Positions 1 to 12,048 are shown, counted from the stretch's first letter. The stretch: 64,000 nucleotides of DNA from Comamonas sp. lk (GCA_945865675.1 CAMBFO010000001.1:1-64000), one strand, 5' to 3'. Program-made: numbers and translations. The notes: generated by a model not told the origin, from the letters alone.

Positions 1-587
1 AGGGCGGCCTTCACTGCGGCGATAGTCTCGTATTCAGCCTGGCCGCGATAGCCTTGCTCGCGCGTACGGCCATGCACCGTGACCATAGCGACACCTGCGC
101 TTTGCGCAGCCAGCGCAATCGACAAGGCATTTTTTTCGCTTTGGCACCAGCCGGTACGCATTTTGAGCGTAACCGGCACGCTGTGCGCAGCGCTGGCTCG
201 CACCACGGCCTCGATGATCTCCAGCGCCAAAGCCTCGTCTTGCATCAGCGCGGAACCGGCCCATTTGTTACACACTTTTTTGGCCGGGCAACCCATGTTG
301 ATGTCGATGATTTGCGCGCCACGGTCGATGTTGTAGCGCGCCGCGTCGCCCATCATGGCCGCATCGGTGCCTGCGATTTGCACTGCGATCGGTCCAGGTT
401 CGCCCTCGTGGTTGGCGCGGCGCGAAGTCTTAAGTGAATCCCATAAGTCGCGCCGCGAAGTGACCATTTCACTGACCGCATAGCCCGCGCCCAGGCGCTT
501 GCACAACTGCCTAAAGGGGCGGTCCGTCACGCCGGCCATAGGCGCGACGAACACCGGATTTTCCAATGCGTAAGGACCGATTTGCAT
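1..587 (-). CDS. dusB: tRNA-dihydrouridine synthase DusB, 3' end outside the window
   Basis: Reverse-strand translation MQIGPYALENPVFVAPMAGVTDRPFRQLCKRLGAGYAVSEMVTS...INMGCPAKKVCNKWAGSALM; Dus family motifs; no stop before the window edge. Confidence 0.9.
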   Translation of the reverse strand, partial: MQIGPYALENPVFVAPMAGVTDRPFRQLCKRLGAGYAVSEMVTSRRDLWDSLKTSRRANHEGEPGPIAVQIAGTDAAMMGDAARYNIDRGAQIIDINMGCPAKKVCNKWAGSALMQDEALALEIIEAVVRASAAHSVPVTLKMRTGWCQSEKNALSIALAAQSAGVAMVTVHGRTREQGYRGQAEYETIAAVKAA

Positions 588-723
588 GTTGAAAATGAGG
601 GGTGGGGACTGCTTCAAGGCCGCGCACACTAGGGGTTTAGCGAGGGCGGGGGACCATTCTATATGCCTAAAATTTCAGCACACTGTCAGGCCGGATGCGC
701 CCCTTACCTATACTGACCGCACA

Positions 724-1200
724 ATGGAAATATGGATGCAATCGCTCTTGGACCTGCTGGCCCTGCCGGCCTATGGTCTGTCCACGGTTTTTGTAGTGTC
801 CTTTATTTCGGCCACCCTGCTGCCCATGGGTTCGGAGCCGGTAGTGCTCGGTGTGATTCACCTCAACCCCGCGCAATTTTGGCCCGTGATTGCCGTGGCT
901 ACCGCGGGCAACACCCTGGGTGGCGCCCTGGATTACGCCATGGGGCGCGGCGCCAGTCATCTTGCACCGCAGGCTAGCAATGCCTCTGTCCAAACACGCG
1001 TCCTGCGCTGGCTGCACCGCCTGGGCCCCAAAGCCTGTTTGCTTGGCTGGCTGCCCCTGGTGGGCGACCCTCTATGCACTTTGGCCGGTTGGCTCAAGTT
1101 GCCCTTCTGGCCTTGCCTGGCCTACATTCTGATCGGAAAATTTCTGCGCTATGTGGTGCTGACTGCCGCTTTTTTTGAAGGTGTTAAGTTAATGCTGTGA
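724..1200 (+). CDS. YqaA/DedA-like (SNARE-associated) membrane protein
   Basis: MEIWMQSLLDLLALPAYGLSTVFVVSFISATLLPMGSEPVVLG...; hydrophobic, GNTLGGALDYAMGR motif. Confidence 0.8.
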   Translation: MEIWMQSLLDLLALPAYGLSTVFVVSFISATLLPMGSEPVVLGVIHLNPAQFWPVIAVATAGNTLGGALDYAMGRGASHLAPQASNASVQTRVLRWLHRLGPKACLLGWLPLVGDPLCTLAGWLKLPFWPCLAYILIGKFLRYVVLTAAFFEGVKLML

Positions 1201-1366
1201 CCGCAAGTCGCAGGGCCTACGCGCACTGAAGTCACCTCTAGCGAGGTCAGGTGCACCAGAAAATCCACCCTGCGAGGCCTCAATCAAATGCGCAAAAGTC
1301 TGCATTTTGGCGATACCGGTGCCAACCAAAGGGCAGGCACTAGGACGTAAGAGTACGAGACCAAGG

Positions 1367-1705
1367 TCAAGTCGCAGCCTTGCGTTGCTTGAAATTGCGG
1401 CACCAACCGTCCACAGGAACCACGCGCTTAAAGAACGAGCAATTACCCGTCGGATCGCCGGCTTTGCTACTGTAGAGTTGGCATTCGCCGCAGCGTTGGG
1501 CAAGCGTGTGTCGCGGATACTTGGTTTGGTCCACATTAGCCGTATTTAAACGAAAGCCCATCGATTTCGGATAGGCATCGGTCTCCTTCACGGCATCCGT
1601 GTCGGTCGCTGCGTGGGCCTGGGGCACAGTAGCTGCGACGCAAGCGCCGGCAAGGGTGTGCAGTATGAATACACGTCGGTTGTGGTTGTGAATATCGAAT
1701 TTCAT
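1367..1705 (-). CDS. High-potential iron-sulfur protein (HiPIP), Tat-type signal
   Basis: RRVFILHTLAGACVAATVPQAHA leader; CGECQLY...GNCSFFKRVVPVDGWCRNF four-Cys HiPIP signature. Confidence 0.9.
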   Translation of the reverse strand: MKFDIHNHNRRVFILHTLAGACVAATVPQAHAATDTDAVKETDAYPKSMGFRLNTANVDQTKYPRHTLAQRCGECQLYSSKAGDPTGNCSFFKRVVPVDGWCRNFKQRKAAT

Positions 1706-1739
1706 TTCAGACTCCATGGTTATCAAAAGGTGCAAGGGT

Positions 1740-2057
1740 TTAGGTAATCAAAGCTTCATCGACACGTGCCTCGCCCTGGTTATCCGTCCAGGCCACGCGA
1801 AGTCGCTCCCCGGCGAGCGCGCCGGAGAATCGAAAATTCAATAGCGGATCTTGTGCCACCGCAAAACTCATGCGGGCAGAGAACACGGTGCGCTCAGCGA
1901 CCGTGACCTTCATGCGCGTGATGAAGTGCGCGGGTTTGGTGGTCCCCGATTCGTCCTGCCGCAAACCCGTCTCCATCGGGTGCGGCATCAGAATCATCAC
2001 ATCCGTGATGCCGTTGCGGACACGTGCGCGGATGCGGATGGGCTTGGGCATGGGCAT
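1740..2057 (-). CDS. soxZ: Thiosulfate oxidation carrier complex protein SoxZ
   Basis: MPMPKPIRIRARVRNGITDVMILMPHPMETGLRQDESG...PAHFITRMKV SoxZ pattern; follows soxY. Confidence 0.88.
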   Translation of the reverse strand: MPMPKPIRIRARVRNGITDVMILMPHPMETGLRQDESGTTKPAHFITRMKVTVAERTVFSARMSFAVAQDPLLNFRFSGALAGERLRVAWTDNQGEARVDEALIT

Positions 2058-2080
2058 GGCGACAATAGCAATAGGGTGTG

Positions 2081-2548
2081 TTAGCCGCAACCGCCAACGC
2101 TGACCTCGATTGCACGCCAGGTGGCAAACAGGCCTTCCTCCGTGCGCACAGCGACATACACAGCGCCGCTATGTGCCATACGGATACGGGTCGCTGCATA
2201 GGCTTCGGTGCCATCGGGGAAGCTGAAACAAGCCGCCAATGGCTGAGGGTTGACATCGACCAAGATCAGGATGTCCCGGGTGCCTCTCAACTGACTTCGA
2301 ACGGTAATCGGCACGAGCGCTCCGTTTTCTGCAAGTTGGGGCAAGTCCAAGCTTATCTGTGCGCTTGCCTCAGGCATGCCACCGAGCGCACCGATCGCCT
2401 CGGTAAAAGTGCGTGCTGCAAACGCCAGTTCCAGGTCTGGCAGTGCCTTCACACTGGCGACCTGCGCAGCACCTGTTGCGCTTGCTGCCGTCCAAGCACC
2501 TGCTGTGAGAAGCAACTGTCGGCGTCCTAAACTGAATTCAGCAAGCAC
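2081..2548 (-). CDS. soxY: Thiosulfate oxidation carrier protein SoxY
   Basis: Signal peptide plus SoxY domain; C-terminus ...VSVGGCG with the terminal carrier cysteine. Confidence 0.88.
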   Translation of the reverse strand: MLAEFSLGRRQLLLTAGAWTAASATGAAQVASVKALPDLELAFAARTFTEAIGALGGMPEASAQISLDLPQLAENGALVPITVRSQLRGTRDILILVDVNPQPLAACFSFPDGTEAYAATRIRMAHSGAVYVAVRTEEGLFATWRAIEVSVGGCG

Positions 2549-2560
2549 TTGGCGCGCCCC

Positions 2561-3154
2561 TTACATCGCATTGCGAACGAGCCGCAGGTAGAAGCGCTCA
2601 TCCTTTCGCGCCGCCAGAACACCCTCCACACCGAAGCTCAATGCAAAGGCAAGATCCTCGGACTTCCCGCCAGGTCGGGCAGTGGACGACCAAAATGCGC
2701 TTGGCGGTGTTCCAGGAAATACCACCAGGTTGGTACGCGGGTTCTTGCAGCCCCGGTCCGTGATCGTTGCCAAATCGCGCAAAGCCGGAACTCGCCAATC
2801 ATTAAAGAAGGCCTCGCCATTGCTACTGATCTGATCAGCCTGGCGGACTGCAGCGGCCCAGTTGTAGCTTGTCGCTTGGCCGGTACACCGTGCGTCGATC
2901 CATCGTTGTCCACTTGGACACCGCATCCACATCAATTTTGAATTGACGTCCGTGACGGTGCCATCTCCGTTATCCTGAAAGCGGGTCAACGGCAGGTTTG
3001 AGTTGGCGGCGACACACGTTTGCTGGAGCGTGGCCCCCTGCGCCGATACCGCGCCCGCCAGCGTTAGCTGGGCCATCAGACAAAGAGTCCAATGCGCCCA
3101 GCCCCCTAAACTTGGACGCTCACTTATCAAAGCCAATTCCGGTGCCTTTGACAT
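2561..3154 (-). CDS. DUF1566-like (Lcl C-terminal domain-like) exported protein
   Basis: RFQDNGDGTVTDVNSKLMWMRCPSGQRW...DWRVPALRDLATI...AFWSSTARPGG...FYLRLVR pattern. Confidence 0.75.
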   Translation of the reverse strand: MSKAPELALISERPSLGGWAHWTLCLMAQLTLAGAVSAQGATLQQTCVAANSNLPLTRFQDNGDGTVTDVNSKLMWMRCPSGQRWIDARCTGQATSYNWAAAVRQADQISSNGEAFFNDWRVPALRDLATITDRGCKNPRTNLVVFPGTPPSAFWSSTARPGGKSEDLAFALSFGVEGVLAARKDERFYLRLVRNAM

Positions 3155-3629
3155 TCAGGCCGCGAGCGCTCTTAGGCTCGGGACCCGCTGTCTGGCGGGT
3201 TTGCAAGCCCGTCTGGATGGCTACGCCGCGGTGCAAATAGTATGAATAGGATTCCAGTGCAACCATGTCGACGCTGCTGACATCCAATGCCTTGCCGGCC
3301 TGTGGGTTCTCGATGCACCAATTCACCATCTCCCGATAGGCCATAACCCTGTCGGCTTGGGGCATGTACTTCGGGAAGGTCTGCGGATTGGTGGCCGCCG
3401 CGTCAGGGTGGCAATTGGCGCAGGCCAGACCGTTGCTCGACATGTCGGCTCGGGCGCCGTACCACATGTCGTAGCCACGCTTGGCGGACTGCGTCAACTT
3501 GTCATCCATGGCCTTGAGCTCATCCTTGGTAAATGGTTCACGCGCAGTTACCAGCGTGGCGGTGGCTACCACCGCTAGGGCGAACAGCGGCGCCACATAG
3601 CGCCGCAGTGATATGGATTGAATCTTCAT
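3120..3629 (-). CDS. Periplasmic monoheme c-type cytochrome (SoxA/TsdA-like heme domain)
   Basis: N-terminal signal; single CANCH heme motif followed by REMVNWCIENPQAGKALDVSSVDMVALESYSYYLHRG. Confidence 0.8.
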   Translation of the reverse strand: MKIQSISLRRYVAPLFALAVVATATLVTAREPFTKDELKAMDDKLTQSAKRGYDMWYGARADMSSNGLACANCHPDAAATNPQTFPKYMPQADRVMAYREMVNWCIENPQAGKALDVSSVDMVALESYSYYLHRGVAIQTGLQTRQTAGPEPKSARGLNVKGTGIGFDK

Positions 3630-3643
3630 AGTCGTATCTCCTT

Positions 3644-4657
3644 TTAAGCTTTGAAGCCATTCTTGATCTTGGGCGGAAGTGAGTCGGCAAAGGGCTGGTA
3701 ATTGACAAAGGAAGCACCCTTTTGGTCGAGGTCAATGGCCGCGCTTCCCATGCCGTCGGAGGTGTTGGACGGGTCGGCTCGGTTTTGCTGGAATTCGGGG
3801 TAGGGCAACTTAACCGGCGGGTAGGGCCACGGCCACGAAGTGCTCATGGTGCCGATGGAGGTCAAGTTGCCAATTTTGTTGTAGACGGTGTGGTGCACAT
3901 GTCCGTGGAAGGCCGTTACGGCAGCGAACTTGCCCAAGATCTGACGGATCTCCTTGGAATCGGAGACCTGGAAGTTCCAGCGCGGGTAGTAATCCCACAA
4001 GGGTGAATGGGTAAAGATTACGACGGGCGTTGCGGGGTCGACGTTGGCCACATCCTTTTTCAACCACTCGCGCTGCTGCTCGCCACAACCCCAAACGCCA
4101 GGTACCGGGCTGTTCAATGGCATGAACCAGTCGCGCCGCTGCTCGGCGCTCAGCTTCGCAGAGGTCCAGAAATCGGGGACCAGAATCGAATTAAGACCGA
4201 TGAAATGCACGCCCTTGTGATTGAATGACCAAGTCTCTTTACCGAAGTTCTCGCGCCAAGAAGCGCCCATATCGAGGTACCAGTCGTGTTCGCCCGGAAT
4301 GGATCGCAATGGAGCCTTGAGCGCGGAGAGGATGCGCTTGCCCTTTTCCATTTGATCCCTCTCGCCATGATGCGCTACATCCCCCGTCACGAGAACAAAG
4401 TCAGGCTGCTTTTTCAGTCCGTTCACTTGCGCAACAGCATCTTCCAATTGCCTGTCAAAGACATGGTCCGTGCCGCTGTAAAGATGGGGGTCGCTAATGA
4501 TGGCAAAGCGGAAAGGTTCGACCTTAGCTTGTGCAGCGCCGGCGACGCCAACCAGGCCCAGATTGACGCCAATGGCCTGCGCCGTCAATGTGGTGAGTCC
4601 TGCCTTGCCGGTGAGGGCCAACATGGATCTTCTGTTCATGTTTTGTCTTTCAGTCAT
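3644..4657 (-). CDS. Tat-exported metallophosphoesterase
   Basis: RRSMLALTGKAG leader; ISDPHLY, VTGDVAHHGE, PGEHDWY, FHGHVHHT calcineurin-like motifs. Confidence 0.85.
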   Translation of the reverse strand: MTERQNMNRRSMLALTGKAGLTTLTAQAIGVNLGLVGVAGAAQAKVEPFRFAIISDPHLYSGTDHVFDRQLEDAVAQVNGLKKQPDFVLVTGDVAHHGERDQMEKGKRILSALKAPLRSIPGEHDWYLDMGASWRENFGKETWSFNHKGVHFIGLNSILVPDFWTSAKLSAEQRRDWFMPLNSPVPGVWGCGEQQREWLKKDVANVDPATPVVIFTHSPLWDYYPRWNFQVSDSKEIRQILGKFAAVTAFHGHVHHTVYNKIGNLTSIGTMSTSWPWPYPPVKLPYPEFQQNRADPSNTSDGMGSAAIDLDQKGASFVNYQPFADSLPPKIKNGFKA

Positions 4658-5113
4658 CGGGATGTCTCCGTTAGTTTGGTTAAGGGTAATCTTTAAAAGG
4701 GGATTGCCGTGGCTGGTTCGCCAAAGCGGGGAACAAGGCTCCCACCGGTTGGCTCAAAGCCATAAAGGATCGCATGCGGCGAATGCCAAATATTGAAGGG
4801 GACGCCCCTAGACGGGAGCGTGAGACGCGTCGCGTACGCGGAGAAGAAAGTGTCAGACCAGCTCCAACCAAGCGCCACAGCACAGCGTCCGCAAAAGCGC
4901 AATTTGCCAAGTCTTGGCAGGAGCCGTATTCGACCGTCCTAATCAGCTTGTTGCCCATCGGATTAACGACTCCCGCGTCTGTGTGGATTGGTGAGGGAAA
5001 GTCTTGCTTTCGCCTTTCTTGCGATCTAACTTGAGCAGAAGTGTAAGGAGGCAAGTGGATATTGAGTAGTTAAAAATTTTGACAATGGCATTTGTTAAAG
5101 CTAATATCATTCC

Positions 5114-6079
5114 ATGCTTTCTAGGATCGCAACGCTCAAGCAGCTCTACGCCTTTCACACCGTTGCAAGGCTGGGCAGTATTTCGCAGGCGGCCCAAGTG
5201 CTGCACCTGACACAGTCGGCGATTTCGATCCAGATCGGTTCTATAGAAGAAACGCTGGGCACCCCACTTGTAATGCGCACCGGTCGGGGCGTACGCCTTA
5301 CCGAAGCAGGCGTGATGCTGCAGGATTACGCCGAGCGCGTCATTGCGCTGTGGAACGAGATGGGCGAGAACATGGATACGTATGCGGGCGCCTTTTTGGG
5401 AACCTTGCGCGTGGGTGCAGTTGCCACCACTGAATACTGGTTGCCCAGCCTGCTGGTGGCCTACGCCAACGAAAATCCCAAGGCCAAGGTCAAGTTGCAT
5501 GTGGGCAATCGCGATGAAATTGTGCGAAGCCTGGAGTCGCAGGAAATCGACGTCGCTGTGATGGGTGACCCGCCGGAAAGCCTCAAGCCGACATCGACGC
5601 GATTTGCAAAAAATTTGATGGGTTTTCTGGCTGCACCTGGTCATCCGCTGATTGCAGAAAGTAAGCTGACCATGGCCAGGCTTGCCAAAGAGCCCATGCT
5701 GGTGCGCGAACGCGGCTCCGGCTCGCGCGCCACATTGACGCGGCTGTTCCGGGAAGCTGGTCATACCCCGCGCATCGGCTCTGAGTTCGCCAGCAATGAA
5801 GCCATCAAGCAGATGTGCATGGCCGGATTTGGTCCGGCCTATCTGCCACTGCACACCTGCGTTCTGGAAATGAAAGCTGGCTTGCTCACCTTGTTGCCCA
5901 TGGAGGGCAACGTCATCGCGCGGGATTGGTTCGTCGTGTACTCGCCGGCGATTAAACCCCTGCCTCAGATGGCGGTCGCGTTTGAGCGTTTTCTCAAGCT
6001 GAACGGACAGAGCAAGATCGATCAGATGCTCGCGCTGCGCGAGGCATTGCCGGGCATGGCGCTGAAGCGAAAGAAGTGA
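5114..6079 (+). CDS. LysR-family transcriptional regulator (CbbR-like)
   Basis: N-terminal wHTH TLKQLYAFHTVARLGSISQAAQVLHLTQSAISIQI plus LysR substrate domain. Confidence 0.88.
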   Translation: MLSRIATLKQLYAFHTVARLGSISQAAQVLHLTQSAISIQIGSIEETLGTPLVMRTGRGVRLTEAGVMLQDYAERVIALWNEMGENMDTYAGAFLGTLRVGAVATTEYWLPSLLVAYANENPKAKVKLHVGNRDEIVRSLESQEIDVAVMGDPPESLKPTSTRFAKNLMGFLAAPGHPLIAESKLTMARLAKEPMLVRERGSGSRATLTRLFREAGHTPRIGSEFASNEAIKQMCMAGFGPAYLPLHTCVLEMKAGLLTLLPMEGNVIARDWFVVYSPAIKPLPQMAVAFERFLKLNGQSKIDQMLALREALPGMALKRKK

Positions 6080-6128
6080 GGCCTGGCCGTACGGCCCATA
6101 GCGCAGACCCAACGCGCGAGGTGTGCAC

Positions 6129-6437
6129 TTAGCCAAGGGTGTCCGCCCAGATATTTTCTGCCTACGCGAGCGCATAGCGGGCCGCCAGCGGGTTCGCAGC
6201 GGCCGACACACCACCAGCGCCAGGAACGGTTTTGTAAGTCCGCTCGGCGGCATCGTATTGATGGACTGATGCGACATGGATGGCCTCCTGCGGCGTGACA
6301 AAGCTGTAGCAAGTGTTCGTCACTGCGGGGCTTGCATTCACTGGCTCACGCTTTAGCAGTTGCAGGACGGCCGCTGCGGCGGCGGCAACCCTGACATGCC
6401 ACTTATGCATCGGATGAACGGCTTCAATAGAGGCCAT
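6129..6437 (-). pseudogene. Remnant of flavocytochrome c sulfide dehydrogenase flavoprotein subunit (FccB/SoxF-like), C-terminal part only
   Basis: HPMHKWHVRVAAAAAAVLQLLKREPVNASPAVTNTCYSFVTPQEAIHVASVHQYDAAERT...ARYALA*AENIWADTLG*; no N-terminal flavin domain upstream; in-frame TAG at 6162-6164. Confidence 0.75.
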
Positions 6438-7539
6438 TGACCAAGCTAGCAGGAGGTACTACCGGATTTTTCACATCGACCAGGGGCGGGGACACATAGC
6501 CGGTATCGATTTGCGGCCCACCGGGTCGCCAAAGCTCTTCGTAGTCCTCTTTCATGCTTTTCCCTAAGAGTGGCTTGAAGGTTCCTTTGTGGCAGGTAGC
6601 ACAACCGACCTTGGGCCCATCGCCATGCTCTCCGAGGCGGTAATCAGGCAAAAGGCCTGCAAGGGGCTGAAGGTAGGCGGTATTCAAATCACGCACCATT
6701 CGCACGCCGTACCATGCGGTAGCCCTCTCTGGCCTGCTATCGGGCCAGCTGCCAAATGCGCGCGTCGAATGACAGTAGGTGCAATTTACCCCCAAGGATT
6801 TGGAAAAGTACATCATCATGGCGTAGGTCGTTTCTGCCTTTTTGACCCCATTGTGCGGATACGGGTTCGCGCCAGCCATCGCTACGATGCCCTGCACCCG
6901 GATATCGTTATCGTCAATAAGGTATCGGGTCAGTGGATCGTAGGGCAGCGAAGAGTTCGCGATATTGGCCACCCCAGGCCTGCCTTGGTAGTCTTTATTG
7001 CCAAGGATAGGAGGTGGTAGATCCGATTTGGCGGTGGTGTACCAATCTCCCGAGGGCACGGGCTGACCACGATGACAAGTCCAGCAGGTGACCCCCGTTT
7101 CAGCGACATGGGATTTCCATTCGGTGTTGATACGACGGGTCATTTTGAGCATCGTCCGCGCCACTCTCTTGGTGTACTTTTCATCGGAGGCCATATTTTC
7201 CGTGTTATGGCAATACTCACATCCCTGCTCGGGGGCAACCCAGGTTGATAGTGCCCCCATCAGCCTTGAAAATTCCAGCACGGTCAGGTCGTTCAGGACC
7301 TGCACGTTTTCGTACTCCTCGCTTACCTTTGGTAGATCCGGGTCAGGCGGGTCAATGGGTTCGGCCTCGGGTATGGAGTTCAACTGAACGCTGGCTGGTA
7401 GCGCTTTAGGTTGGTAGAGCACAAACTGGCCCGTTCCCCGGTAGCCCGTTTGCACACTGATGGTGTGATTTTGGTAGGCAAAGAACAGTATCAGGACCGT
7501 TGCCATGGCAACTAAAAATGTAACGACCATCCGAATCAT
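6424..7539 (-). CDS. pufC: Photosynthetic reaction centre tetraheme cytochrome c subunit
   Basis: N-terminal TM anchor; four heme motifs CEYCH, CWTCH, CTYCH, CATCH; QTGYRGTG and APEQGCEYCHNTENMASDEKYTK PufC-like blocks. Confidence 0.92.
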   Translation of the reverse strand: MIRMVVTFLVAMATVLILFFAYQNHTISVQTGYRGTGQFVLYQPKALPASVQLNSIPEAEPIDPPDPDLPKVSEEYENVQVLNDLTVLEFSRLMGALSTWVAPEQGCEYCHNTENMASDEKYTKRVARTMLKMTRRINTEWKSHVAETGVTCWTCHRGQPVPSGDWYTTAKSDLPPPILGNKDYQGRPGVANIANSSLPYDPLTRYLIDDNDIRVQGIVAMAGANPYPHNGVKKAETTYAMMMYFSKSLGVNCTYCHSTRAFGSWPDSRPERATAWYGVRMVRDLNTAYLQPLAGLLPDYRLGEHGDGPKVGCATCHKGTFKPLLGKSMKEDYEELWRPGGPQIDTGYVSPPLVDVKNPVVPPASLVNGLY

Positions 7540-7927: not shown

Positions 7928-9097
7928 TTAGGGTTTCACCATCTCGCGGATATCAATCCGCAGATCTTTAGTGCCCAGCGCCACGGGAACTGACTGGCCT
8001 TGCAGATCGCCAGGCTGGGCGATGGCATTGCCGCTTTTGCTGATACGCGCGCTAATGACCACTTGCGTGGCGCCAGACAAGCGCGCTTGCGGCGACATGG
8101 ATTTACTGTCATCCAAGGTGAATTTATAGGGCAGGTCTTTGACCTGCTTGCGCTCGGCGGCCAAAGGCATGCGGCCATTGGGAGCCTCTTTGGCAAAAAT
8201 AAACACAAAGTCTTCGGGCTTGGCCTGGGCGCGCAGCTCGGGCGACAAACTGACGGTGCCGCTCACCGAGGGCCCACCCGCAGCGGCAGCACCCCCATCG
8301 GCTGTGGCCGACGGTTTGAATGGCGCAGCTGCGGGCGTCGTCTGTGCGGGCAGACCCGCCAGTTTGCGTGCCTCTTGCAAGCTGGCGGCCACACGCTGCA
8401 CCAGCGCATTGTCTGGCGAGCCGACCACTTCGATACGGCTCCAGTATTTCACCGCCAGCGCAAAATCTTTGCGCTCAAAGGCGTCGGCGCCTGCCAGCGC
8501 GAGGCCTTTGATATGGTCCGGCTCCAGCTTGAGCGCACGCGTGATCAAGGCCATGGGTTCACCTTGCAAACTGTGCTGGTTTTTCACCGCCAAGGTGTCG
8601 GCGTAATCGACCAGCAAACCAGCATCGTCTTTTCCCAGGCCAATTGCTTTTTGGTAGGCCGCCAGCGCGTCCTCGTTGCGCTGCATCACGCTGTAAGAGC
8701 GCGCCAGCATGGCCCAGCCGTCGGCATCGTTCGGGTTTTGCTGCATGCGCTCGGCCAGTTGCTCCACCATGGCCACGACCTGGGCCTGGCTGGCACCGCC
8801 GTCGGCGCTCCCTTCATCCCCTTGGGGCGGATTAGCCGAACGGTTATAGGCATAGCCGCCGATAGCAACAACCAGTACCAGGCCCGCCAGGCCCGCTAGC
8901 AAGGGCCAGGAGGGCTTGGCCGGTGCGGGCGCATCCACCGCGCTGTCGTGCAAGAGCATGTCCAACAAACGCCGCTCCAAGCTGGCGCGCTCGGTATCAC
9001 GCTGCGCCTGGCTGAGCGTACCGGCCGCATGCGCTAACTCCAGGTCAGCCAATTGGCGTTTAAAAGGGGCCAGCAAGGTGTTCAGCGCGTCGGTCAT
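7928..9097 (-). CDS. ccmI: Cytochrome c biogenesis protein CcmI (CycH), TPR
   Basis: N-terminal CcmI domain, TPR repeats, last gene of the ccm run. Confidence 0.85.
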   Translation of the reverse strand: MTDALNTLLAPFKRQLADLELAHAAGTLSQAQRDTERASLERRLLDMLLHDSAVDAPAPAKPSWPLLAGLAGLVLVVAIGGYAYNRSANPPQGDEGSADGGASQAQVVAMVEQLAERMQQNPNDADGWAMLARSYSVMQRNEDALAAYQKAIGLGKDDAGLLVDYADTLAVKNQHSLQGEPMALITRALKLEPDHIKGLALAGADAFERKDFALAVKYWSRIEVVGSPDNALVQRVAASLQEARKLAGLPAQTTPAAAPFKPSATADGGAAAAGGPSVSGTVSLSPELRAQAKPEDFVFIFAKEAPNGRMPLAAERKQVKDLPYKFTLDDSKSMSPQARLSGATQVVISARISKSGNAIAQPGDLQGQSVPVALGTKDLRIDIREMVKP

Positions 9098-9105
9098 GGC
9101 GTCTC

Positions 9106-9567
9106 TCAGGAAAGATGGGGGTCTTGCGACGCGTCCTTGTCGTCGGCCTCAAAGGCCTCGTCAGCCAGCCGACTGCGCCGGCGCAAGACCACAAACAAGG
9201 TGCCAAGGCCCAGGACAACCATGGCCCCAGGTCCGATCCAAAGCAAAGCAGTCAGCGCCTTGAAGGGCGGGCGGTAGAGCACAAAGTCGCCGTAGCGCGC
9301 AGTCATATAGTCAATCACCTGTTGCTCGGTCTGGCCGCTTTGCAGCATTTCGCGCACCTGGCGGCGCAAATCCACGGCCAGCTCGGCGTGCGACGCAGCA
9401 ATCGTTTCGTTTTGGCACACCAAACAGCGCAGCTCATTGGAAATTTTCATCACCCGCGCCTCCAAGGCCGGATCATCGCTAGCGGGCAATGCCTCTGCGG
9501 CGAAGGCGCCGACACAGGCCAGCATGCAGACCAGACTGATCCCCAAACGGAATATTATTTGGCGCAT
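9106..9567 (-). CDS. ccmH: Cytochrome c maturation protein CcmH
   Basis: LRCLVCQNETIAASHAELAVDLR motif. Confidence 0.92.
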   Translation of the reverse strand: MRQIIFRLGISLVCMLACVGAFAAEALPASDDPALEARVMKISNELRCLVCQNETIAASHAELAVDLRRQVREMLQSGQTEQQVIDYMTARYGDFVLYRPPFKALTALLWIGPGAMVVLGLGTLFVVLRRRSRLADEAFEADDKDASQDPHLS

Positions 9568-9568
9568 A

Positions 9569-10099
9569 TCAGCTATTGAGTTGCTTGATTAAGGGCACAA
9601 TCGTGTCACGCAGCACCTCGGGCGTGAGCGGGCCGATTTGCTTGTAGCGGATCACGCCTTCGCGGTCGATGACAAAAGTTTCCGGCACGCCATAAACGCC
9701 AAAGTCAATGCCCACGCGCCCGTCCCGGTCGGAAATAGAGACGGTATAGGGGTTACCAAAATCAGCCAACCATTTCATACCCGCTGCACGCTCGTCTTTG
9801 TAATTGAGGCCATAAATAGGCACCTTGGCTTGCTTTGCATATTGCACCAGCAGTGGATGCTCCTGACGGCAGGCCACGCACCAAGAGGCCCAGACATTCA
9901 GCAGCCACACCTGGCCGCGCATATCATCGCGGCTGATGCGCAGCTCAGGCTGGTCTAGGCGCGGCAAGGAAAACGCAGGCGCCGGTTTACCGATCAGCGG
10001 CGAAGGCACTTCTTTGGGATTGAGCGTAAGGCCTGCCCGCAAAAAATACAACAAGACCAACAAGATGCCCATGGGCACCAGATAGCGCACATGCTTCAT
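9569..10099 (-). CDS. ccmG: Thiol:disulfide interchange protein CcmG/DsbE
   Basis: Thioredoxin fold with WASWCVACRQEHP active site; operon context. Confidence 0.9.
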   Translation of the reverse strand: MKHVRYLVPMGILLVLLYFLRAGLTLNPKEVPSPLIGKPAPAFSLPRLDQPELRISRDDMRGQVWLLNVWASWCVACRQEHPLLVQYAKQAKVPIYGLNYKDERAAGMKWLADFGNPYTVSISDRDGRVGIDFGVYGVPETFVIDREGVIRYKQIGPLTPEVLRDTIVPLIKQLNS

Positions 10100-12048
10100 C
10101 ACTGCGCCTCCACCGGGCGGCGATAGCGCCTGTCGGTAACAGCCAGCAAACCGCCCAGCGCCATGAAAAGGCAACCGAACCAAATCCAGTCGATAAACGG
10201 CTTGACATAGACCCGCACAATCCAGGCACCGCCTGCAACTTGTTCACCCAGGGAGACATACAAATCCCGTGTCAGGCCGGAATCAATCGCCGCCTCGGTC
10301 ATGGGGTTTTGCTGCACCCGGTAGATGCGCTTTTCCGGACGCAAGTCCGCGATCGGGTGGCCATCGCGCGAAACGCGCATCTGGCCTTGGGCCGCCACAT
10401 AATTTGGGCCTTGAAGTTCCTTGATACCGTCAAATGTAAAGGTATAGCCGCGCACCGTGGTGCTGTCGCCCACCAACATCTTGACATCGCTCTCGACCTC
10501 GTAGGTTTTAACCATCACCACGCCGATGCAAAACACCGCGATACCTAAATGCGCCACCATCATGCCCGCCAGGGCACGCGGAATCTGGCGCATACGCGCA
10601 GGCGCCTGCGCCCAATCGAGGCCGTGCGGATGTACGCGGCCCCACAAGTCGGTGGCTACCGAGCCCACGATCCAATAAGCCATAACCAGACCCAATGTGG
10701 CGACCAGGCGCACTTCACCGGCCAGCGCGCCGGTCAGCACCGCACCAACGATGGCCACGGCTGCAGCCCATCGCAAGCGCATCGCCAGCGCTGGCAACTC
10801 AGCGTTTTTCCAGCGCGCCAGGGGGCCGATGCCCATAAGAAACACGGTAGGCGCCATCAGCGGCATAAACACTGCATCAAAGTAGGGTGGTCCGACCGAA
10901 ATCTTGCCCATGCCCAGGGCGTCGATCACCAAGGGGTATAGCGTGCCTAGCATCACCGCCAGAGCGGCCACCACCAACAAGACGTTGTTACCCAGCAAGG
11001 CCGATTCTTTGGACCACAAGCCAAAGCGTTTACCAATGCCGACCTCGGGCGCGCGCCAGGCATACAGTGAAAAAGAACCGCCCACCACCACCGCCAAAAA
11101 GGCCAAGATAAACTGGCCGCGGGCCGGATCGGTAGCAAAAGCATGCACCGAAGACAGCACCCCCGAGCGCACCAGAAAAGTCCCCAAGAGCGAAAATGAA
11201 AACGCCAAAATAGCCAACAACACCGTCCAGGACTTGAAACTATTGCGCTTTTCAGTAACGGCCAGCGAATGGATTAAGGCGGTGCCCAACAGCCAGGGCA
11301 TCAGTGAGGCGTTTTCCACCGGGTCCCAAAACCACCAACCACCCCAGCCCAGCTCGTAATACGCCCATGCGCTGCCCAGCGCAATGCCGATGGTCAAAAA
11401 CATCCAGGCCACTGTGGTCCAAGGCCGGGTCCAGCGGGCCCAGGTAGCGTCCAGCGTACCGCCAATCAAGGCGGCAATGGCAAAAGCAAAGGCCACCGAA
11501 AAGCCGACATAGCCCATATAAAGCATCGGCGGATGGAACACCATGCCTGGATCTTGTAACAAGGGGTTGAGGTCGCGGCCCTCGAGCGGCGCCGGGAACA
11601 AGCGGTCAAAGGGGTTGGAGGTGAGCAGCATGAAGAGCAAAAAGCCCACTGCTACCAGCCCCATGATCGCCAATATGCGTGCAAGCACCTCTTTCGGTAA
11701 ATGGCGGCTAAACAGGGCGACGGCCACGGTCCAAAGCACCAGCATCTGCACCCACAAAAGCAAAGAGCCTTCGTGCCCGCCCCAGACACCGGCGATGCGG
11801 TACTCCAAGGGCAAGGCGGTATTGGATAGCGCAGCCACGTAGCGCACCGAAAAATCATGCCCCACAAAAGAGACTGTCAGGCAGGCATAAGCCAAGGCCA
11901 CAAAGAAAAATAACAGATATGACAGCGGGCGCGCCAGCGCCATCAAGTCCGCACGCCCGGTCTGCGCTCCAAGCAAGGGGACGGAACCCAGCACGAGCGC
12001 CATGCCCAATGCGAGCCAGATAGAAAAGTGTCCGATTTCAGGAATCAT
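10099..12048 (-). CDS. ccmF: Heme lyase CcmF
   Basis: GGHEGSLLLWV, WWFWDPVENASLMPW motifs, polytopic. Confidence 0.95.
   Translation of the reverse strand: MIPEIGHFSIWLALGMALVLGSVPLLGAQTGRADLMALARPLSYLLFFFVALAYACLTVSFVGHDFSVRYVAALSNTALPLEYRIAGVWGGHEGSLLLWVQMLVLWTVAVALFSRHLPKEVLARILAIMGLVAVGFLLFMLLTSNPFDRLFPAPLEGRDLNPLLQDPGMVFHPPMLYMGYVGFSVAFAFAIAALIGGTLDATWARWTRPWTTVAWMFLTIGIALGSAWAYYELGWGGWWFWDPVENASLMPWLLGTALIHSLAVTEKRNSFKSWTVLLAILAFSFSLLGTFLVRSGVLSSVHAFATDPARGQFILAFLAVVVGGSFSLYAWRAPEVGIGKRFGLWSKESALLGNNVLLVVAALAVMLGTLYPLVIDALGMGKISVGPPYFDAVFMPLMAPTVFLMGIGPLARWKNAELPALAMRLRWAAAVAIVGAVLTGALAGEVRLVATLGLVMAYWIVGSVATDLWGRVHPHGLDWAQAPARMRQIPRALAGMMVAHLGIAVFCIGVVMVKTYEVESDVKMLVGDSTTVRGYTFTFDGIKELQGPNYVAAQGQMRVSRDGHPIADLRPEKRIYRVQQNPMTEAAIDSGLTRDLYVSLGEQVAGGAWIVRVYVKPFIDWIWFGCLFMALGGLLAVTDRRYRRPVEAQ

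Follow-up and report, generated by a model that had tools for sequence, protein, structure and literature searches.

An exported phosphoesterase-cytochrome pair joined in purple phototrophs to HiPIP and a second reaction-centre cytochrome: an apparently undescribed operon

An ancient gene pair, coding for an exported metallophosphoesterase (MPE) and a monoheme c-type cytochrome of the SoxA/TsdA type (CYT), has been joined in purple phototrophs to the genes for a high-potential iron-sulfur protein (HiPIP) and a second type of tetraheme reaction-centre cytochrome (PufC2), making what is apparently an undescribed operon. The core of this operon is the MPE-CYT pair, not Sox. One copy lies in the window, the whole 64,000-nucleotide stretch of Comamonas sp. 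lk DNA that was analysed. Full-text searches of one open-access library turned up no account of the operon or of the second PufC clade. A first-pass annotation of the window had read the locus as an alternative SoxYZ pathway; it contained neither the divergent LysR-type gene nor the PufC-type cytochrome that is part of the system, nor the link to photosynthesis.

The operon in the window

Six open reading frames run along the minus strand at 1367-4657. MPE (3644-4657), a Tat-exported single-domain calcineurin-like phosphoesterase (PF00149 Metallophos, 9e-16), is followed by CYT (3120-3629; PF21342 SoxA-TsdA_cyt-c, 1.6e-10), by an exported DUF1566/Lcl_C-domain protein that is the third gene of the proteobacterial version (2561-3154; PF07603, 4e-25), by SoxY with a Tat signal and a C-terminal GGCG (2081-2548; PF13501, 1e-25), by SoxZ (1740-2090; PF08770, 2e-28) and by the Tat-exported HiPIP (1367-1735; PF01355, 1e-12). 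From MPE to HiPIP the intergenic gaps are 14, -35, 12, -10 and 4 bp, and given this spacing the six genes are likely a single transcription unit. Reading frames, gaps and Pfam matches thus bear out the earlier description of six close or overlapping genes on one strand. The conservation of their order, proposed at that stage as a check, also held up: the identical order recurs in many other genomes, so the arrangement in the window is not a product of chance.

Divergent from the operon lies a LysR-type regulator gene (5114-6079, plus strand; PF00126/PF03466), CbbR-like in that its top NCBIfam match is CbbR, under the cut-off; its position upstream of MPE is kept in Burkholderiales. PufC2 (6424-7539, minus strand; PF02276, 3e-118) lies upstream of LysR in the window and downstream of HiPIP in most loci. 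The next gene past PufC2 encodes the cytochrome c maturation protein CcmI/CycH (7928-9097, by Pfam). The DUF1566 gene, present in 48 of 80 loci, is an addition made in Proteobacteria, and HiPIP, with its four-cysteine Fe4S4 pattern conserved, is found in 28 loci of the phototroph clade.

Distribution of the pair

Among 84,980 species genomes scanned, MPE had 182 relatives, and 80 of the 182 loci were analysed. Of these, 79 have CYT directly beside MPE and in the same orientation; the sole exception stops at a contig edge. The two proteins co-evolve (r=0.89 between their pairwise distances over 78 loci, uncorrected for shared ancestry). The loci span nine phyla, namely Pseudomonadota (Burkholderiales, Chromatiaceae, Gallionellaceae and others), Aquificota, Spirochaetota, Acidobacteriota, Nitrospirota, Nitrospinota, Planctomycetota, Myxococcota and Binatota. 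Within the window's own family the operon is rare, with strong MPE matches in 3 of 301 genomes, its own included, and the three other genomes of its genus have no strong match. A Thioalkalivibrio arsenic-island "MPE" (PMC6620896) was set aside as a match in the word alone.

What surrounds the pair varies by lineage. In 25 loci, which form one side of a branch among the labelled rows of the MPE tree, a gene for a diheme peroxidase of the CCP_MauG family lies directly upstream of MPE (two examples confirmed by Pfam). Loci of Aquificota and Leptospira carry an extra cupredoxin-like protein (c10), read as such from the sequence, of which Pfam matches only a CarboxypepD_reg part. These neighbours bear on the possibility that MPE and CYT form a stress or detoxification module that removes reactive species, its acceptors being swapped from lineage to lineage: CCP/MauG in Aquificota, Spirochaetota, Acidobacteriota, Planctomycetota and Myxococcota, HiPIP-PufC2 in phototrophs. 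Besides the peroxidase gene and the cupredoxin-like protein, rubrerythrin-like genes (by eye) near MPE in L017, L064 and L078 fit such a role, as do zinc-finger anti-sigma factors encoded upstream of MPE-CYT in L069 (6751-7653) and L079 (7758-8573), whose C-terminal part has a CxxCH motif and which are possibly heme-binding sensors. However, no peroxidase gene adjoins MPE in the phototroph clade, the rubrerythrin-like genes are confined to those three loci, and the presence of a dedicated cytochrome of the reaction-centre type speaks rather for energy metabolism. Detoxification is consequently regarded as unlikely.

A further neighbour was rejected as informative. In a Gallionella locus (L033) an alternative complex III-like operon (48-6670) stands upstream of MPE, beside SspA/SspB-like genes, in the place taken by bc1-like genes in the window; given that an SspA/SspB-like pair (by eye) adjoins both the complex III-like genes of L033 and the bc1-like genes of the window, this neighbourhood is probably coincidental.

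The phosphoesterase

MPE had been proposed to play a SoxB-like role, and this part of the earlier reading is not supported. The predicted model (pLDDT 77.5, with the signal region disordered) finds its best fold match in GpdQ (3d03, E=2e-14), with Rv0805 and purple acid phosphatases among the further matches, and the profile search agrees, its matches and those of the fold search including GpdQ, Rv0805, PAP and Mre11. SoxB is absent from the top 50 fold matches and from the profile matches; a single 5'-nucleotidase appears, at rank 44. As judged from sequence profiles and the model, MPE thus resembles the GpdQ/Rv0805 class and not the 5'-nucleotidase/SoxB class.

Across 82 aligned sequences D56xH58, D93, E123-H124-D125, H217 and H253xH255 are conserved, so that all of the motifs DxH, GD, GNH(D/E), H and GHxH are present except for the asparagine of GNHD, which is glutamate (GEHD, followed by WYLD) in 82 of 82. 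This substitution in every homolog, together with the strict pairing with CYT, would be expected if MPE helped CYT, HiPIP or PufC2 to mature, or served them as a scaffold, and were not an enzyme acting on a substrate. Yet the remaining metal-motif residues do not vary across 40 diverse sequences, ECF-linked paralogs included, which suggests catalysis and makes the maturation role very unlikely. The paralogs in question form a GEHD family that lacks WYLD; elsewhere in the window's family its genes are found close to those for ECF sigma factors (L085 1411-2388, L086 1087-1989, L087 1471-2373, L089 1225-2394, L090 1516-2403); in L086 a cupredoxin-like gene (by eye) lies nearby.

The cytochrome

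CYT is a protein of 169 aa with one CxxCH and no second electron-transfer heme domain. C70xxC73H74, K87, M101, W104 and C105 are retained in 81 of 81 sequences, and the invariant C105 aligns to the heme-ligand cysteine of both SoxA domains and of TsdA, in keeping with the SoxA/TsdA-like label given to it at first. Profile matches to SoxA (1h31, 2.7e-18) and TsdA (2e-9) point the same way, and TsdA and SoxA are its only fold matches above noise, weak as these are (best E 5.6e-3). By sequence, CYT is a genuine SoxA/TsdA relative, and its heme is probably Cys/His-ligated.

Whether it also plays a SoxAX-like role, as had been suggested, is where kinship and residues part. In TsdA a thiosulfonate intermediate forms at the heme-ligand cysteine, whose reactivity, like the binding of substrate, is shaped by Arg109, Arg119 and Ser127 (PMC4423706). 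These Arg/Arg/Ser residues are not found in CYT at offsets -14, -4 and +4 from its cysteine, where a variable Q/N/M, an invariant M and a P stand instead; TsdA-like thiosulfate binding is therefore not supported. CYT also scores 41 bits against SoxA TIGR04484, for which the cut-off is 110, below the level of a SoxAX catalytic cytochrome, and it is nearer to the SoxA N-terminal domain (46 bits) than to the catalytic domain (21 bits). The conserved cysteine makes sulfur chemistry possible, but given the missing substrate residues and the closeness to the N-terminal domain, CYT may be only an electron-transfer protein.

SoxYZ as an optional component

SoxY of the window ends in VGGCG, with the carrier cysteine present, and its 114 bits fall just under the NCBIfam cut-off of 125; SoxZ scores above the cut-off set for "true SoxZ" by NCBIfam (TIGR04490, 98.5 bits vs 76). 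Nearly all complete SoxY homologs encoded at operon loci have a C-terminal GGC(G/A/S/R/V), with SGCS in L003. SoxYZ is optional. It is found locally in 17 loci and the window; within the 32-row HiPIP/PufC2 clade of the MPE tree 19 labelled rows have it and 11 do not (L034, on a short contig, counting among the latter by assumption). Some SoxYZ-less copies are nested among SoxYZ-bearing ones, a pattern that takes at least 4-5 gains or losses. A census of 50 genomes found some SoxY in all HiPIP/PufC2-type genomes and all five Aquificota, and none in the 11 other outer-branch genomes (L059, L063, L064, L067-L070, L073, L074, L077, L079), which rules out that MPE-CYT needs SoxYZ. In L035/L043-type genomes SoxY lies elsewhere, in a separate SoxXYZA-like cluster beside a xanthine-dehydrogenase-like gene. 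Similarly, L122 (1715-5958) and L124 (6-4129) carry SoxX-like, SoxY, SoxZ and SoxA genes beside a xanthine-dehydrogenase-like molybdoprotein gene (by eye); the SoxY encoded there ends in AAC(I/V)DNG, and their genomes have no detectable SoxB.

The case for a variant SoxYZ pathway of thiosulfate oxidation, in which MPE would take the part of SoxB and CYT that of SoxAX, draws on the loci in which SoxYZ retains its carrier cysteine. Family searches of the window's metagenome-assembled genome (MAG; G000, 89% complete) found no SoxB over the TIGR04486 cut-off and no second SoxA/TsdA-family protein, CYT being the sole PF21342 match, so that the absence of soxB and of a further SoxA-type cytochrome noted in the window extends to this assembly. 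SoxB likewise went undetected in G302, G306, G307, G324, G325, G327, G351 and G352, and four genomes (G000, G302, G351 and G352) combine local SoxYZ with no detectable SoxB. Erythrobacter flavus, which uses TsdA and SoxB without SoxYZ, offers a precedent (PMC7608252). Against this, all of these SoxB-negative genomes are draft MAGs, and every one of the Chromatiaceae tested has true SoxB, as do many operon-bearing Burkholderiales, so that the operon-bearing Chromatiaceae already own the enzyme that MPE would replace. Taken with the dispensability of SoxYZ, the dissimilarity of MPE to SoxB, the Asn-to-Glu change at its metal site and the lack of TsdA substrate residues in CYT, this renders a Sox-like pathway improbable.

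The operon and photosynthesis

The HiPIP/PufC2 version of the operon is confined to one 32-row clade (support 100/100) of purple beta- and gammaproteobacteria, Burkholderiales and Chromatiaceae. All members with a long enough contig carry both HiPIP and PufC2, apart from L005, which is an additional copy from the L004 genome; this second MPE-CYT-DUF1566 copy (9001-11331) lies on another contig with a SoxZ-like gene. Nearly all carriers are phototrophs, PufLM being found in 27 of the 30 distinct clade genomes searched (G006 and G305 are one genome). PufLM was not found in G302, in G327 or in the 89%-complete MAG of the window; since the latter has BchY (E=2e-212), it is most likely a bacteriochlorophyll phototroph whose PufLM was lost to an assembly gap.

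Most clade genomes have two PufC by PF02276 search, one beside pufLM and one in the operon. In a FastTree phylogeny of 46 sequences the 20 PufC1 and 26 PufC2 are reciprocally monophyletic (0.964 / 1.0), with 50% identity between the clades, and the window's PufC2 (NF040706, 408 bits vs a cut-off of 150) is 93% identical to the PufC2 of L002 vs 50% to the puf-operon PufC. PufC2 retains the CxxCH motifs, and M94, M130/M133, M242 and H144, to which a ligand role is assigned by analogy, are conserved with PufC1. Given its fixed differences from PufC1, PufC2 may not bind the reaction centre. In most Chromatiaceae PufC2 is extended in one open frame to an OmpA domain far downstream (L014, L018, L022 and L027 by Pfam, L016 by eye), L026 being without it. 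By sequence reading, the puf-operon PufC of genome G075 (L119 358-1881) apparently also has a C-terminal OmpA-like extension.

In L027 pufLMC, whose PufC is the puf-operon copy, lies about 2.5 kb from the operon on the same contig, and in L119 pufM-pufC1, LysR and MPE stand in a row. Together with the PufLM, BchY and PufC2 data, these neighbourhoods tie the operon to photosynthesis. That a second PufC clade is kept beside a conserved oxidation operon in most clade genomes suggests a separate, unrecognised entry of electrons into the reaction centre.

A proposed mechanism

The favoured reading, held tentatively and at a little under an even chance, is that of a periplasmic oxidation module. Hydrolysis and oxidation of a periplasmic substrate would be the joint work of MPE and CYT; this substrate is likely a reduced sulfur species, either inorganic or bound to a thiol, for which SoxYZ could serve as an optional covalent carrier. 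CYT would then hand electrons to the operon's HiPIP, which fits the early suggestion of HiPIP as electron acceptor; HiPIP would pass them to the dedicated PufC2, and PufC2, presumably docked on the photo-oxidised reaction centre, would deliver them there. The HiPIP-to-cytochrome step has a model in the structurally established docking of HiPIP on the tetraheme subunit (PMC7889895).

More broadly, non-phototrophs ranging from Aquificota to Planctomycetota have MPE-CYT as well. Given that the pair is found in organisms without a reaction centre or SoxYZ, the core reaction need not concern sulfur. A wider proposal, possible but rather doubtful, is that in many phyla the GEHD phosphoesterase and the Cys-ligated cytochrome work as a single enzyme, which oxidises some periplasmic compound and gives the electrons to interchangeable acceptors, either cupredoxin and peroxidase or HiPIP with a second reaction-centre cytochrome evolved for the purpose; in purple bacteria it would be an unrecognised photosynthetic electron donor. 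Identifying the substrate in one tractable organism, for instance Thiocapsa roseopersicina, whose strain DSM 217 has the operon (L024), would also suggest what the pair does in many uncultured groups.

Relation to known systems

The likeness to the Sox system (SoxAX, SoxYZ, SoxB) lies in the SoxYZ carrier, in a SoxA-family cytochrome with the heme-ligand cysteine position, and in a periplasmic protein of metallophosphoesterase fold. Here, however, SoxYZ is optional and the operon has no SoxX, CYT is a single domain without the catalytic arginine, and MPE is of the GpdQ/Rv0805 class. With class III cyclic nucleotide phosphodiesterases and GpdQ, MPE shares the fold and most metal ligands, whereas it is Tat-exported, has GEHD for GNHD and is encoded alongside a redox protein. 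PufC-HiPIP donation to the purple reaction centre (PMC7889895) likewise involves HiPIP and a tetraheme cytochrome of PufC type in which the heme-ligand positions are conserved, but here the cytochrome comes from a second PufC clade, is encoded outside the puf operon, is tied to MPE-CYT and in most Chromatiaceae shares one long frame with an OmpA domain. By analogy, the nearest described logic is that of Erythrobacter flavus 21-3, in which a Cys-ligated cytochrome and a hydrolase of metallophosphoesterase fold likewise dispense with SoxYZ; the partners there are a true diheme TsdA and a true SoxB, whereas here they come from other families and are accompanied by parts for photosynthetic electron delivery.
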